Assembly (NCBI GenBank): GCA_963457665.1 | Contig: OY735216.1 | Span: forward strand, 47,895,825 to 47,959,824 | Direction: 5' to 3' | Source of the DNA: Thysanoteuthis rhombus | Taxonomy: Eukaryota > Mollusca > Cephalopoda > Oegopsida > Thysanoteuthidae | Length of the DNA stretch: 64,000 bases | Shown here: one piece after another, positions 34,520 to 43,429 of the stretch | Position numbering within the stretch: the first letter of the stretch is position 1 | Layout of the letters: every line of letters starts with the position of its first letter | Notes under the pieces: generated by a model | Told to the model about the DNA's origin: nothing | The model's database searches: none | Seen by the model: the letters and a program-made list of their open reading frames with translations, nothing else | Made by a program: the position numbers and the translations under genes

Positions 34520-35827
34520 TTGCACATCCGCCAAACTTACTTTTTAACACTAATTACTGATATAATCAATGTCTTTGCCACTGTATATGATCTGCACATA
34601 ATCGAATGTATATAATAGATAAAAACTTCTACATGAATATGAATATTTTTATTTGAGCAAATGAAAAATTCATTTTAATTGAAAAACAGAAACTAACTGT
34701 TCTTGTATATTTTTTTCTTAGACGGGGCCCATCAATCTTAGTTTATGTTATGGTCGAAATAGTGCCTTCGTCTTTATGTCAAGTTGTTCACGACGTTTAG
34801 ATCATGTCCATCCAGCTTTCGTCCGGAGTTCTTTGTTCTAGAATGCGTATCCCACAACAAAGAAACACAGGACGAAGCTTGCTGAGTCCATGGCCGAAAA
34901 GTTGTGTATAAATGAAAATAAAGATGACAAAGATAGCCTGACCATACTATAAACTATGAGAAACAATTGTTATTTGTCTCAAATGCACAAAACTAGACAT
35001 TAAATTCATGTGGCTTGTGATGTTTTCAACACTTCACGCAACAGTGTCAAGATTTTTAAATGATAAAGATAAATTTAAAACAAAAACTTGAATAACACTA
35101 TGCAACATTCTAAAACTTGCTTTTCATCTTGGGTAATAACTCTTATTTTCTGATTGATTATGTCTAAGATATAGAAAATGTTAATTATTGTCTTCAAACA
35201 TTGCTTTTGAGACCAGGACAGTGATAATTTGAAATCTAAGAATTCCCAATGAGACTGCAGGAAAATTTGTACATTTTAATCACACTAAGTAAGAAAAACA
35301 ATTCCATATGGACATATGAAAAGCAAAGTTTAGATGGAATGATAGCCATTTTCTGTACTTACACACGAGCATTCAGAAAACAACACTCACTATCCAGGAA
35401 CCTAAATCGCGTTACCACGGGATTTCTCAAAATGAAGACCAGTGGTGGGAATGGGGGGGGGGGGTTACGGTGTATACTTACGTCTTAATTTCCATGTTTT
35501 TTTGTATATCCCATGTTTTCCGTATACCTACTTTCCAAAACCCATTTCCATCATTGGAATGTGTGCATAAACTCACGTGGGATTATTACCCCGCCACCGA
35601 ACTTGAACAGATGTTATAATATCAATGATGTTTGTCTGTCTGTCTGTCTGTTCTCGCAATCTCTCGCAAACTTTTCAATGTAGAGTTACAAATTTAAATT
35701 CTTTGTTTTCAATTTTTCAAATTTGGAAGATGACCTCCAATTGTTAAGATTTGAAAAAAAAAAAACGTTTGAATCGGCAACACTGGGCTAAAAAAATATT
35801 GAGAAAAGAAAACAACAACCAACATCT
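34520..35827. other. Intergenic DNA
   Basis: A run of ten G at about 35455-35464 and (TCTG)n at 35630-35652 are the only notable tracts. No gene is seen. Confidence 0.45.
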
Positions 35828-35838
35828 AAAGCGGTAAC
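35828..35838. repeat. Target-site duplication, left (AAAGCGGTAAC)
   Basis: Eleven bases identical to 41460-41470. It directly precedes the (ATC)n that is the 3' tail of the LINE on the minus strand. Confidence 0.9.
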
Positions 35839-35858
35839 CATCATCATCATCATAATCA

Positions 35859-37062
35859 TCAGTCTTTTAGCGTCCGTCGTTGGACATAGACCTTCCCCAG
35901 GATTTGCCACACTTCTCTATCATGGGCGTCACGGAGCCAGTACTTCCTGAACTTATCTAGTTCATCTCTCCATCTAATATTTTGCCGGCCTCGGTTGCGC
36001 ATGTGGTCTCGGGGAATCCATGTTGTGAGTCGTGATGTCCATCGATTGTCAGCCATTCTTGCAACATGGCCAGCCCACCGCCATTTGAGATTTTTTATGG
36101 ATTCTATGATGTCTCTAACTCTTGTCTTTTCCCGGATGTGTTGTGCTGTTTTGTGGTCTCTCCATGTGAGGCCCAGCATTATTCTTTCATGTGCACGTTG
36201 CATGGTTCTCAGCTTACGGGTCTGTTTCTTGGTTAAGTTCCATGTTTCAGCTCCATAAGTGACTATTGGGAGGATGCATTGGTTATACACCCTTCTCTTT
36301 AGGATTAATGGGATCTTATTATTTTTGAAGGTTGAGCTAGCTCTGCCAAAGGCTTGCCATCCTAGTGTGATTCTTCGCTTGATTTCTTCTTCTTTTGAGG
36401 GTCTCATGGAGATTCGTTGCCCTAGGTAGATGTAGTGGTCTACTTTCTCGAGTTCTGTGTCCTCGATTTCGATCTTAGTGTTCTTTTCTCCAATGTGGTT
36501 GTTGCACATGATCTTCGTTTTGCTGAAGTTCATGTGTAGGCCGACTTTCTTGCTCTCCTCATTTAGTTCATCTATCATTAGTTGGAGGTCATGTAGGTTC
36601 TCTGCAAAAAGGGCTATGTCGTCTGCGAATCTGAGGTTGCTCAGATACTCGCCGTCTATTTTAATTCCTTTACTCTCCCAGTCTAGCCTTCTGAAGATCA
36701 TCTCGAGGCAGGCTGTGAAGAGTTTAGGTGAGCTGGTATCACCTTGTCTTACTCCTTTCTGGAGCTGGAAGGGGTCCGAGTCTTTATGTAGCCTGATAAA
36801 TGAGCTGCCGTGATTGTATATATGTTTCAACACCTCAACATATACTGGATCTACACCTTGGCGACTGATGGCCTCCATGACCTTAGGGATTTCTACTGAG
36901 TCGAACGCCTTTTTGAAGTCGATAAATGCTACGGCAAGTGGTAGTCTATACTCTGCTGCTTTTTCTTTCAGTTGATTTATCGAGTGCAGGTGGTCCATGG
37001 TCGAGTAGCTTCTTCTAAAGCCAGCCTGTTCACGTGGCTGGTTTTCATCGAGTGTTTTTGTG
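35859..37062 (-). pseudogene. LINE ORF 3' half: RT palm to C-terminus
   Basis: About 400 codons without a stop. Motifs in order, counted from the first TTG codon at 37085: FIDFKKAFDSV (about 54-64, first catalytic Asp), KGVRQGDTSSP (110-120), FADDIALF (153-160, catalytic Asp pair), GLHMNFSKTK (182-191), YLGQRIS (220-226), then the C-terminal RAHERIMLGLTWRDHKT and LKWRWAGHVAR...RWRDEL region typical of RTE-clade and related APE LINEs. The first eight or so codons of the open frame come from the adjoining 5'UTR monomer across the inversion junction, so there is no true start here. It ends in TTLKD before TAA at 35859, next to the tail. Confidence 0.92.
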
Positions 37063-37063
37063 G

Positions 37064-39198
37064 GAAAAAATTGAAACTTTTTCAACTGCTAAAATGAAGT
37101 CCCCAGACTAACTAAAATTGCCGCAAATTTAGATGAGTACATAATTTTCTTGATTTATTATTCATTTCCTCATTGTTCTGTGACAATCCTTAATGCCTGC
37201 CTATTCATCCAACTCTGTATTACATGCTTGTAAATGTCCTATGCGTCGAATCGTTGGTCAAGTAGCAAAAAAAAAAAAAAAGAAAAAATCCCTGAATGTG
37301 CACCAATTCCGTATATTCCAAAGAACCCTAAATCCCCCCCCCCGAAATTAACCATAAATCTATAAGGAAAAAAAAAAAGAAAGAACCCTCCCCCAAATGC
37401 CGAAATCTAAATATCTAAAAGCTAAACTGACCCCATACTCCCCCCCCCACTACCTCGACCTAACTTTGACTTGCCCTAAAAAACAAACGAATGTAGTGTT
37501 GGATATGTCCAGGCTGTATCTATTATCAGTAGTAAATTCTTGCTGGGAGACGGGCACGAATTATTTAGCAAGGAACGATGGAAAAAATTGAAACTTTTTC
37601 AACTGCTAAAATGAAGTCCCCAGACTAACTAAAATTGCCGCAAATTTAGATGAGTACATAATTTTCTTGATTTATTATTCATTTCCTCATTGTTCTGTGA
37701 CAATTCTTCATGCCTGCCTATTCATCCAACTCTGTATTACATGCTTGTAAATGTCCTATGCGTCGAATCGTTGGTCAAGTAGCAAAAAAAAAAAAGAAAA
37801 AATCCCTGAATGTGCACCAATTCCGTATATTCCGTATATTCCAAAGAACCCTAAACCCCCCCCCCCCACGAAATTAACCATAAATCTATAAGGAAAAAAA
37901 AAAAGAAAGAACCCTCCCCCAAATGCCGAAATCTAAATATCTAAAAGCTAAACTGACCCCATACTCTCCCCCCCACTACCTCGACCTAACTTTGACTTGC
38001 CCTAAAAAACAAACGAATGTAGTGTTGGATATGTCCAGGCTGTATCTATTATCAGTAGTAAATTCTTGCTGGGAGACGGGCACGAATTATTTAGCAAGGA
38101 ACGATGGAAAAAATTGAAACTTTTTCAACTGCTAAAATGAAGTCCCCAGACTAACTAAAATTGCCGCAAATTTAGATGAGTACATAATTTTCTTGATTTA
38201 TTATTCATTTCCTCATTGTTCTGTGACAATTCTTCATGCCTGCCTATTCATCCAACTCTGTATTACATGCTTGTAAATGTCCTATGCGTCGAATCGTTGG
38301 TCAAGTAGCAAAAAAAAAAAGAAAAAATCCCTGAATGTGCACCAATTCCGTATATTCCGTATATTCCAAAGAACCCTAAATCCCCCCCCCCCACGAAATT
38401 AACCATAAATCTATAAGGAAAAAAAAAAAGAAAGAACCCTCCCCCAAATGCCGAAATCTAAATATCTAAAAGCTAAACTGACCCCATACTCTCCCCCCCA
38501 CTACCTCGACCTAACTTTGACTTGCCCTAAAAAACAAACGAATGTAGTGTTGGATATGTCCAGGCTGTATCTATTATCAGTAGTAAATTCTTGCTGGGAG
38601 ACGGGCACGAATTATTTAGCAAGGAACGATGGAAAAAATTGAAACTTTTTCAACTGCTAAAATGAAGTCCCCAGACTAACTAAAATTGCCGCAAATTTAG
38701 ATGAGTACATAATTTTCTTGATTTATTATTCATTTCCTCATTGTTCTGTGACAATCCTTAATGCCTGCCTATTCATCCAACTCTGTATTACATGCTTGTA
38801 AATGTCCTATGCGTCGAATCGTTGGTCAAGTAGCAAAAAAAAAAAAAAAGAAAAAATCCCTGAATGTGCACCAATTCCGTATATTCCAAAGAACCCTAAA
38901 TCCCCCCCCCCCACGAAATTAACCATAAATCTATAAGGAAGAAAAAGAAAGAACCCTCCCCCAAATGCCGAAATCTAAATATCTAAAAGCTAAACTGACC
39001 CCATACTCTCCCCCCCCACTACCTCGACCTAACTTTGACTTGCCCTAAAAAACAAACGAATGTAGTGTTGGATATGTCCAGGCTGTATCTATTATCAGTA
39101 GTAAATTCTTGCTGGGAGACGGGCACGAATTATTTAGCAAGGAACGATGGAAAAAATTGAAACTTTTTCAACTGCTAAAATGAAGTCCCCAGACTAAC
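37064..39198 (+). repeat. LINE 5'UTR tandem monomers, 4.1 units
   Basis: Units 37064-37580, 37581-38106, 38107-38631, 38632-39149 and a 49-base stub to 39198; lengths are 517, 526, 525 and 518. Each starts GGAAAAAATTGAAACTTTTT. Differences are mainly in A-runs, C-runs and a doubled GTATATTCC. Units 1 and 4 share CAATCCTTAATGCC, while units 2 and 3 share CAATTCTTCATGCC plus the doubled GTATATTCC. The array sits directly upstream of the ORF half and starts at the inversion junction, so it is best read as a tandem-monomer 5'UTR, by analogy with monomeric L1 promoters. A 64-codon frame repeats in three units and probably has no function. Confidence 0.85.
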
Positions 39199-39513
39199 GA
39201 TGCAGTTGCAACCTTTTTTATAAACTTAACCCTCTGTGGACTTTATCTAAGTTAAAAACTTAATATATAAGGGAGAGGTATCTTCCAAATTGTCCCCACC
39301 GGAATCTGCATCCAACTTTTTCCTTTTTTTTTTTTTTTTTTTTTTTTTCAACCTTGGTGCTCCGAACATCCACTCTTGTTTTCACAAGAACAGTTTGGAT
39401 GTGTATCAAGAGCCGGTGGAGCTCTTTTGCCACTGACCAGCAGTGGACAATCCACTAGACCCCCTTCCAACACGTCTTGGGCCAGCGTGGCAGGGCATGG
39501 CCCATTACTCCCC
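39199..39513 (+). promoter_or_regulatory. LINE 5' leader downstream of the monomers
   Basis: Single-copy leader between the array and the coding region. It has a run of 25 T at 39324-39348. The coding frame stays open from 39271, but the first in-frame ATG is at 39514, so where translation begins is unclear. Promoter function is inferred only from position. Confidence 0.4.
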
Positions 39514-41469
39514 ATGATTTGCACACCAAATATTATATCGGCCGTTCCTGCTGAGACCTCGGTACCAAAAGGCCCAGCCATATCACTTGCTTTGGGTGGG
39601 GGTGATATGCTCCAAGGGCGACTACCCAAAAACTACACCAAGAGTACGTCAGTTCCTGCTGGGTCATCGGCCCCAAAAGACTCAGCCACATCACTTACTT
39701 TGGGTAGGGGTGATGTGCTCCGAAAGCGACTACCCAAATCCTTCACCAAGGGACCCTCTGTCCCTACTGAGTCACCGCTCAAACAACGACCATTTCAACA
39801 GAACTCTAAGACTGTCAACAAGAAGACAAATTTATACATAGGCACATACAACGTCAGAACATTGTCAACTGACATGCACCTAACTGATCTAGAAAGTGAA
39901 ATCAGAAATGTCAAATGGGACATCATAGGCATTAGTGAGGTAAGAAGACCCGGAGAAGAACTAATCGAACTGAGAAGCAAGCATCTTCTTTACAGCTACG
40001 GTAAAGAGAAAGCAAAACAAAGTGGAGTTGGCTTTCTCATCAATAAGAACCTGAAAGACAATGTAACTGGCTTCAAAGCCGTCTCTGACCGGGTAGCTAG
40101 CGTCACCATACAACTTTCAAAACGATACAAACTCAATATAATCCAAGTCTACGCTCCCACTTCGCAATCAACCCAACAAGAAATAGACAACTTCTATGAT
40201 GACTTGAACTCTCTACTCCAAGGCACCAGAAAACACTTCAATGTTATCATGGGAGACTTCAACGCACAAGTAGGACAAGGAAATGAAAATTGCGTCGGCA
40301 AATTTGGATACAAAATACGCAACGAGAGAGGAGAAGATCTTGTAAACTTTGCGACGGCTAATGGATTCAAAATCATGAACACCTTCTTCAAGAAGGGACC
40401 CAGTAGGAAATGGACTTGGAGGAGCCCCAATCACGAAACAAGAAACGAAATAGACTACATCCTAACGGACAAAAACGATATCGTCAAGGACATCCAAGTC
40501 CTAAATCAAGTCAATGTAGGCAGCGACCACAGAATGGTACGATGTAAAGTACAAATAAACACCAATAAAGAACGCAGGAAAATGTTCCATACAAAACCGC
40601 AGCCTCTACACATACCAAAAGAGCACGTTCAATCTTTCAAGCTCGAATTGAAGAACAGATTCAGAATTCTTACTGAACAAGACAGCACCAACATCAACGA
40701 ACTAAGCAGCAAAATGACAACGTCAATAATTGAAGTAGCCTCTACATTCAAGCCAATGGGCAAACAACCCATTAGCAAAATCTCGGATGAGACTAAAAAT
40801 CTCATGGAAAAACGCAGAAACCTCAAGCCACCGACAACAACGAGGGAGAAAATTGAAGAGGCTGAACTAAACAAATTAATCAAGAAGAAACGAAGAGAAG
40901 ACAGAAGGAGATACACAACGGCAGTCATTGAATCAACTCTGGAAAAAGGTCGGGGCTTCAAAGCTATAAACAAACTCCTCAACTCGGGACGAAGGCAAAT
41001 AACTAGCATACTCGAGGAAAATGGAAACCTAACAACAGACAGAGACAGGATTGTCGAACGCGCCAAAGAATTCTACCAAAAACTTTATTCGTCCAAACAA
41101 GGACTGCAAAACAATGAGCAAGATACGCAAGACACGGGCAAACAACTAGAGGACTTCCCAAAAGTAACCCCGTGGGAGGTGAAGGAAGCCATTAAACAGA
41201 CAAAGAAAGGAACTGCCCCTGGACCAGACAACATCACCATCGACCTACTCCGAAAAGCAGGTAAAACCATCAATAGGAAACTGGCCGTCCTCTTCAACCT
41301 GTGTCTAAAACACAGTAAAGTCCCAGACGATTGGAATACTGCTATCATAATGCTTTTATATAAAAAAGGAAACCCGAAAGACCTCAACAACTATAGGCCT
41401 ATAAGCCTACTCAACTGTGTATATAAACTTTTCACAAAGATCATCACCAACCGAATCACAAAGCGGTAA
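39514..41469 (+). pseudogene. LINE ORF 5' half: APE endonuclease and RT start
   Basis: The open frame runs from 39271; I place the start at the first ATG. Counting from 39376, motifs are GTYNVRTL (156-163), GISEVRR (185-191, catalytic Glu), IQVYAPTS (256-263), IMGDFNAQVG (291-300), NEIDYILT (357-364) and GSDHRMV (382-388). This is the full apurinic/apyrimidinic-type endonuclease signature. A charged linker follows, then RT: AIKQTKKGTAPGPDNITID (about 603-621) and NYRPISLLNCVYKLFTKI. The frame ends in KR and a stop that lie in the 11-bp target duplication, so the truncation is caused by the insertion structure rather than by decay. Confidence 0.92.
39545..39775 (+). repeat. In-frame 108-bp tandem repeat in LINE N-terminus
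   Basis: Units start at 39545, 39653 and 39761 (partial). Each encodes 36 residues beginning VPAETSVPK or VPAGSSAPK and including SLALGGGDMLQGRLPK or SLTLGRGDVLRKRLPK. The multiple-of-three period keeps the frame open. Function unknown; it lies before the endonuclease. Confidence 0.85.
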
Positions 41470-41470
41470 C
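41460..41470. repeat. Target-site duplication, right (AAAGCGGTAAC)
   Basis: Identical to 35828-35838. It supplies the last KR codons and the stop of the plus-strand LINE half. Confidence 0.9.
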
Positions 41471-43429
41471 ACTGGGGGTAAAATAACGATGACAGTTTTG
41501 TGGAAAGGTGGGCCATGAACCAAGAATAAATTGAATGATTGATTCACCAGTCAACAAATATGATTAATTGCATAACAGTTGTTTTTAAAAACTATCACAG
41601 TCAAAAATTGAACAACCATAGCGTCAATTTTTTAGTTCGAGGGAAGAATCGAAGAATAAATATAGTTAGAATGAATTCTATTTATGACATTACCGGCATT
41701 TTCCAAGGTAAAACATCTAGAATAGAATAATAGAAATCTAATAATATCAAGATTTTGGAGAATCTAGATGTCAATGAATAAACCCATCATGCCCTAAAAA
41801 TGGTCAGAAAAGCTTTTTTCCCTTTAATACATGGAAGAAATATTTCAGGAGGAGTCCAGTGGAGTACTAATGACAATTTTCGAGTCCGTTGATAAAACAG
41901 TATAACCAGGAGTTTTGAAGCACAAAGACATATAAACACACACAAACACATAAATATACGCATATATTTATTTTTAAAAAGGGGGATAGGACCCTTTGCC
42001 ATCCCTGATGGCTAAGATTCTTCAATAAAAATGAGATGAATAATTATTACACGCTTTTCTCACCGCATAATCAGGGATCTATAACCTGATTGTTCAGTTC
42101 TTAGAGACACTAATGTTGGCGGAGCTACACGTTTTCTGCGTCTACTCTTTATATCATTTTTAGATACGCTAACAACTGTAGTACCTATAAGCGTAACTGA
42201 CTGACGAGCTGACATACTGAAACAAAATTTGCCTATTTAGCTCATTCGGAACTGAATTTAGCACATTTTTGGTGCATTTAAGCCACTGACTGACTGACTG
42301 ACATACTGAAACAAATTTTAAAGAAACTGGTTGCTAGAGAGAGGAAATGGGATTGAACTCGCGCTTATATGTTCTGACTTTCAGGCTTGTTTCCACAAAA
42401 TTGTGAATCACGAAAAATCTAAATTTATGAGGGCGTCTGACACAATTAAATAAAAAAAACTTCCTGATTTTTGATTACGCTCTAAAATCTTCCTGCAAAT
42501 TTGGAATCGAATATCGTGAAAACCTTAATGTTAATTGAAATTCACTTTGTTGGTTTCTTTACAAGCAACTCTTACATTAATAGAAAAAGTGTCATTAACT
42601 TTTAGGCTCAAGTTTTAAAGACTATTAAATTTTCCGGCATCCGCCACGCTGAATTATCTGCTACTGACAAAATAAGCCAATACATGTCAGAATTGATGAC
42701 ATTCTTGGACATTGTGTCCTCTAAACGAGTGGTCCTACGCCATTGAGCTGCAGACCGGTACCGGTTCGCAACACATTTGCCTTATAAACGATATGATTAG
42801 AGGAAATAAAACCATATGAACCAGCTGCACCTGTCCTCATTCCATCTCATGCCTCCAACTGAGAAATATATTTGATTTACGCGACAAACCAACTGTAAAA
42901 ATGAGATTAATAAGACAAAAACATTCCAGTAGTCGATGAACGAAATTAATATGAATTTTCCACCTTGCGAATTCGGGTTGATCTTAACATTAAATGCGTT
43001 AGATGAACTCTTTTAGAAATGAAGTAGAGTGTATTAGTCATTTATAAGTTACTCATAGCTGTGTCAGGGACCGGTAGTATGTCTCGGCCAAATTATGCGC
43101 TTTTGGTCTGGTCATTGTCATCCGTCATTGTTGTTACACACGGGAATAAGGTCAAAACTCAACATAAAGAGTTCATCAAAAATTCTCAGAGAGTGTATGC
43201 CACTGCCAATGCTGTACATTCGTAAATTACAAAATGATTTTAAAAAATGATTTTAAAAAAATAAGCAAATCTTGCAAAAATGTTAAAACGTAGGTCAATT
43301 AATACTGTAAAGTAATAGAATGAAAAACTGCAATTATTAAAGAAGATAGAAAACAATTATAAACTAGACATGCATGGTTATGCTAGGATCAAACTACCTT
43401 CATTAAAATCTTAGAAGTAAATAAAACAG
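41471..43429. other. Intergenic DNA
   Basis: No gene. Small features: a repeated phrase GACATACTGAAACAAA at about 42210 and 42300, (CTGA)n at 42280-42300, and a minus-strand repeat F-like fragment at about 41800-42000. A tRNA-like phrase near 42725-42765 was considered and left uncalled. Confidence 0.4.

Follow-up and report, generated by a model that had tools for sequence, protein, structure and literature searches.

Layout of the insertion

The window, which is the whole stretch of 64,000 nucleotides analysed from the squid Thysanoteuthis rhombus, was found to carry a LINE insertion at 35828-41470 made up of two opposed pieces lying between exact 11-bp target duplications, AAAGCGGTAAC. The 3' piece occupies the minus strand from 37062 down to 35839 and the 5' piece the plus strand from 37063 to 41459, with the following features:

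35828-35838, unstranded: target-site duplication AAAGCGGTAAC, the copy beside the 3' end of the element, exactly matching 41460-41470
35839-35861, minus strand: 3' tail, a TGA/GAT trimer repeat of which the first TGA (35859-35861) is the stop codon of the ORF; the same tail type in 20/20 fetched sister copies
35862-37061, minus strand: uninverted segment with 400 codons of the 3' half of the ORF; match to reverse transcriptase PF00078 (2.8e-25)
37060-37064, unstranded: inner inversion junction, GTG (complement of the CAC of the 3' half) with the GG of a monomer; 0-1 nt of microhomology
37063-39198, plus strand: 5'UTR of four tandem monomers of 517-526 bp with a 50-bp partial one; inverted segment
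39199-39513, plus strand: leader, from the monomers to the first in-frame ATG common to most fetched sister copies
39514-41466, plus strand: 5' half of the ORF, apurinic endonuclease PF03372 (8.5e-14) and PF14529 (2.9e-11), and the start of the reverse transcriptase
41460-41470, unstranded: target-site duplication, the copy at the internal priming site, whose AAA (TTT on the priming strand) would pair with the RNA

The minus-strand half is open for 400 amino acids (TKTLDENQ..TLKD) up to the stop codon at 35859-35861, and the plus-strand half from the ATG at 39514 to ..NRITKR. The last two codons of the latter (AAG CGG) and its stop codon TAA (41467-41469) lie inside the right target duplication. 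The first-pass annotation had described two open half-ORFs placed head to head, an exact target duplication flanking the block, a stop codon of the 5' half supplied by the target site and an overlap of the breakpoint with the AAA of the duplication, and all of this was borne out, with the 5' half ending ATCAC beside that AAA. Even with one mismatch allowed, AAAGCGGTAAC matches nowhere in the window except at its two copies at the edges of the block. Shuffled windows gave a mean of 0.72 matches at one mismatch and two or more in 20 of 100 cases; the weight of the duplication therefore lies in its exactness and in both copies abutting the block, and not in the mere count.

The middle of the block, left undescribed in the first-pass annotation, consists of monomers in a head-to-tail array (37063-39198). 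An array of the same kind stands upstream of the ORF in sister copies, which confirms the earlier suggestion that the 5'UTR had been copied as well. The accompanying description of the insertion as near full-length is correct as far as the ORF and a minimum of four monomers are concerned, with 37063 as a putative 5' end of the RNA.

An empty-site allele was not found in the squid's own assembly, in which neither flank has a second near-identical place. Within the 40 listed places, the first ~110 bases of the right flank matched nothing but themselves; for the left flank, the matches other than itself were short or weak. Beyond ~120 bases the right flank is an old dispersed repeat (41591-41880 of the window), with 39 other listed places at 72-79% identity.

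The element family and continuity across the breakpoint

The genome searched was a 2.73-Gb assembly, and a sister set of 20 copies of ~10 kb each was selected by match to the endonuclease half (ranks 2 to 20 of 80 scored matches, and one more equal in score to the last). Molluscan haemocyanin domains (PF14830) gave 52 matches in this assembly and none in 14 control genomes, which marks the host as a mollusc. Nine haemocyanin units of identical score were observed there at a spacing of about 2.18 kb (G000:C25:56607734-56625492), an array which resembles the mega-haemocyanin of some snails.

The element has one ORF, in which an AP endonuclease is followed by a reverse transcriptase (Pfam matches on the two halves searched apart), and 14/20 sister copies have 1,048 codons running from the same ATG to the same stop. 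Monomers lie directly upstream of the ORF and in direct orientation in 14/20 of the fetched copies, which is why the monomer array was taken to be the 5'UTR of the element. Direct copies start at various monomer positions and the monomer number is variable, with eleven whole monomers of ~520 bp in L031; in L034-L040 the monomers belong to a longer variant whose middle differs.

Two further features match those which define RTE elements in the available excerpts of PMC1291365 and PMC4245944, namely a very short 3'UTR of short-unit repeats (here the stop codon is itself the first TGA of the trimer tail) and target duplications of about 10-12 bp (11 bp in the window). The poly(A) tail of LINE-1 is absent, with the trimer tail in its place. 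The nearest solved structures by sequence are LINE-1 ORF2p for the 5' half and R2 and LINE-1 proteins for the 3' half; clade assignment by this route gives LINE-1 and R2 and is uninformative. By its one ORF, its trimer tail containing the stop and its duplications near 11 bp, the element fits RTE in structure. The RTE-like label given earlier agrees with these structural hallmarks and rests on them.

All 20 fetched sister copies read AACCGAATCACAAAAACA uninterrupted across the point at which the window's element is broken. There, the 5' half ends ATCAC/AAA and the 3' half begins CACAAAAACACTC / CACAAAAAC, with no letters lost and six letters present twice, three of them within the duplication. 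When the 5' half (1,619 nt) was aligned with the 20 copies one private substitution was seen, and alignment of the 3' half (1,198 nt) with 19 copies gave one private substitution and a two-column gap at the alignment end; L037 was left out of the latter because its 3' end lies elsewhere. The window insertion is young. Of the fetched copies, L021 comes nearest to each half, sharing that place with L023 in the case of the 5' half. Exactly L021 and L031 share with the window two minority variants of its 5' half and one of its 3' half. Among the other minority variants of the 3' half, one is common to L021, L031 and L033, one to L021 and six others, and one (T>C) to L026, L027 and L032 and not to L021 or L031, the last of these speaking against a single source. 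Since nothing was lost at the breakpoint and rare variants are common to the same sister copies, both halves were probably made from one RNA, as two segments of one template which meet near one point, although that one variant of the 3' half points elsewhere.

A 26-mer pattern across the continuous breakpoint had 3,050 genomic matches at up to 2 mismatches, against one match (itself) for a 36-mer over the window's inner junction at the same threshold. On these counts, the head-to-head layout is private to the window insertion at up to 2 mismatches. The same layout in other copies, as a normal structure, had been set beforehand as the test of twin priming, which came through it without being refuted; the other inverted copies, where read, differ from the window in breakpoint and flanks.

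Recurrence of the inversion, target duplications and microhomology

Three of the 20 copies fetched by the endonuclease half were inverted at other breakpoints, a biased count, since an unbroken endonuclease half was the ground of selection. For a second set, of 38 copies, the 3' end was the sole ground of choice (40 listed matches minus the window and L022). Probes of 120 bp placed 1,500 bp upstream of the 3' end found 7 of the 38 direct, 2 inverted and 29 without an element match. When these remaining 29 were probed with 60 bp at 600 bp, 9 were direct, 4 inverted or across an inversion junction, 1 shifted (L109), 1 a diverged relative (L121) and 14 without an element match, two of the 14 giving short weak matches only. 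The probe 600 bases upstream of the 3' end of L109 (G000:C11:23454914) reads element positions shifted by about 246, and this appears to be a differently rearranged or nested copy. Inverted copies thus number at least 6/38 in the 3'-end set, a lower bound as inversions outside the probes would be missed. In all, nine further inverted copies were found (3/20 and 6/38), and the inversion recurs in the family and is not a one-off. Seven of the nine were read at the outer end, including four of the six in the 3'-end set:

L036 (G000:C1:85931699-85941621): break in the leader; duplication ATGTATGTTTA; 4 nt of microhomology
L037: break in the 3' part of the ORF; duplication GAAAAAATATAT; 2 nt of microhomology by eye, about 30 nt lost
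L038 (G000:C2:12748303-12758225): break in a monomer; duplication TAAGAGCAATTTA; 5 nt of microhomology
C39:11408970: duplication AAAGGAAGAGA; 2 nt of microhomology
C33:44074154: duplication ATGTCTGTTTTT; 1 nt of microhomology
C28:39202193: duplication ATCCATTTTTTT; 2 nt of microhomology
C4:5974358: duplication ACCTGGAGCAGT; 3 nt of microhomology

The other two (C5:50679237 and C3:85380027) were read at the inner junction alone, and at C3:85380027 the stretch guessed as the outer end contained neither element nor duplication. Since L036 and L038 were broken within the 5'UTR, their frame is open over the ORF, for 1,117 and 1,138 codons respectively, and lies behind inverted monomers. The monomer arrays of L038 lie head to head and those of L036 are flipped. 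At up to 2 mismatches the inner junction of each of these two copies matches the genome once, and therefore no progeny with those junctions was seen.

With the window included, eight insertions were read at both outer ends, with duplications of at most 11-13 bp and, at the point of internal priming, microhomology of 1-5 bases. The duplication in the window is 11 bp with clear edges. For the seven others the lengths of 11-13 bp are maxima, as their first one to three letters may be tail, and 8-12 bp remain when letters fitting the tail are excluded. When 19 of the 20 long copies were scanned for duplications, lengths of at least 11 bp turned up in L034, L035, L036 and L038, of which L034 and L035 are the only direct copies with an 11-bp duplication; L028 gave an uninformative AT run, and the other direct copies showed no duplication above 9 bp within the stretch scanned.

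At the priming site of the window, the microhomology is 3 nt (target ..CTTT-3' on RNA AAA), which taken alone is not significant (P 0.06). A scripted test was made on seven insertions (those of the window, L036, L038, C39, C33, C28 and C4); L037 stood outside the sum because its exact letters were not found in the reference copies. The summed microhomology was 20 nt, a value reached by random template positions in 3 of 500,000 draws (joint P about 6 in a million), and microhomology of at least 1 nt in all seven occurred in 77 of 500,000 random draws. Earlier tests which included L037 came to 5 and 2 of 200,000 (with four copies, on two templates) and to 4 of 300,000 (with six copies). Between 0 and 4 bases are shared at the inner junctions of the window, C39, C33, C5, C28 and C3.

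Twin priming as the probable mechanism, and its alternatives

Twin priming is very likely the best explanation of the window insertion. The layout is that of a twin-primed copy, with the 5' segment inverted, the 3' segment direct and the tail outward, and a single target duplication abuts both outer ends. The earlier proposal of this mechanism is supported by the geometry, the duplication, the microhomology, the shared variants and the unique inner junction. Reverse transcription of one element RNA would have started at the two ends of a single staggered break. The first nick would prime on the trimer tail and copy the 3' 1.2 kb (minus strand in the window). The second-strand end, 5'-..GTTACCGCTTT-3', would pair by its TTT with the AAA inside the RNA at ..AUCACAAAAACA.., and synthesis of the second cDNA would proceed leftward on the RNA, first over the ORF's 5' half, then over the leader and on into four monomers. 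The first cDNA would extend three bases past the internal priming site, the two cDNAs would be joined at 37062/37063 and filling of the staggered ends would yield the 11-bp duplication, the source of the stop codon of the 5' half. We infer the order of events, the use of the element's own reverse transcriptase at the second nick and the manner of cDNA joining. It was also considered that the G at 37062, a single base, may be cap-derived.

A direct insertion inverted later by recombination or repair would also give head-to-head halves between one duplication pair, and is very improbable. It needs a breakpoint exactly at the duplication edge each time, as seen in all eight doubly read insertions; target-element microhomology is present at that edge in the eight; and a search of 35500-41800 with seed 12 detected no inverted repeats at least 30 bases long which might have driven the event. 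An assembly artefact has to be weighed given that young repeats are hard to assemble, and is just as improbable in view of the exact 11-bp duplication and target microhomology of the window insertion and of junctions of the same kind at nine other places with different flanks. There is next to no chance that two separate insertions landed head to head; the family is abundant, but the 11-bp duplication brackets the pair as a unit with none at the inner junction, the halves meet at one template point with a 6-nt overlap and they have rare variants common to the same copies. The layout is equally hard to accept as the normal structure of the element or as a propagating subfamily; inverted copies do recur in the family, but 20/20 fetched copies are continuous at the window's breakpoint and in the window, in L036 and in L038 the inner junction has a single match, which refutes it for these three at up to 2 mismatches.

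The squid element can be set beside known systems. Twin priming, or 5' inversion, of mammalian LINE-1 was reportedly described by Ostertag and Kazazian in 2001. As far as the excerpts of PMC2912911 go, the mammalian copies are alike in having an inverted 5' and an uninverted 3' segment, a target duplication, a short stretch of microhomology where internal priming took place, and overlap or loss of a few bases between segments; about 10% of human L1 copies are inverted, and of these ~70% have 2-5 bp of microhomology and 4.6% none. The squid element differs in its RTE features, its mollusc host, its trimer tail in place of poly(A), its duplications of at most 11-13 bp and its tandem-monomer 5'UTR, which lets some inversions spare the ORF. 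Mouse L1, in the passages available from PMC6454616, likewise has a variable number of tandem monomers upstream of the ORF; it is, however, a different kind of LINE, and the promoter role of the squid monomers is putative. SR3 of Schistosoma and the octopus RTE-2_OV are alike in having one ORF with endonuclease and reverse transcriptase (PMC1291365, PMC9115989, in part), and SR3 also in that its 3' end is short and built of short-unit repeats and its duplications are 10-12 bp long (PMC1291365, in part). Compared with both, the variable tandem-monomer 5'UTR is a feature of the squid element. In the SR3 paper (PMC1291365) the words 'inverted' and 'inversion' occur 0 times, and in the RTE-2_OV paper (PMC9115989) 'twin' occurs 0 times, with its six 'inver' places partly covered.

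In cell assays, 5' inversions were confined to human L1 in human cells, a single Nimb-2_DR insert excepted, and the suggestion was made that about 5 nt of overhang may not be enough for the second priming (PMC4245944, excerpts). For L2 and RTE, the snRNA chimeras in the part available of PMC4476161 are ascribed to template switching only. No twin-primed RTE was found in the accessible parts of PMC5389967, PMC4476161, PMC13174262, PMC4245944 and PMC2912911. The literature searched, which omits most subscription papers, yielded no report of twin priming in RTE-type LINEs and no paper on twin priming with BovB or with mollusc LINEs. A vertebrate survey of L1, L2, CR1 and RTE junctions, said to have been made by Ichiyanagi and Okada in 2008, could include RTE inversions.

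A LINE with RTE features twin-primes, and not rarely. We think it reasonably probable that twin priming is a frequent and ordinary integration outcome in this RTE-like family (at least 6/38 young copies), hence independent of L1 proteins and perhaps dependent on an overhang of some ten bases at the target, and that the long monomer 5'UTRs catch some of the inversions, leaving elements in which flipped or head-to-head promoter arrays precede an open ORF. A family with RTE features, duplications near 11 bp and an inversion rate like that of L1 makes the idea of overhang length testable, and thousands of copies outside the vertebrates provide a natural test set for it.
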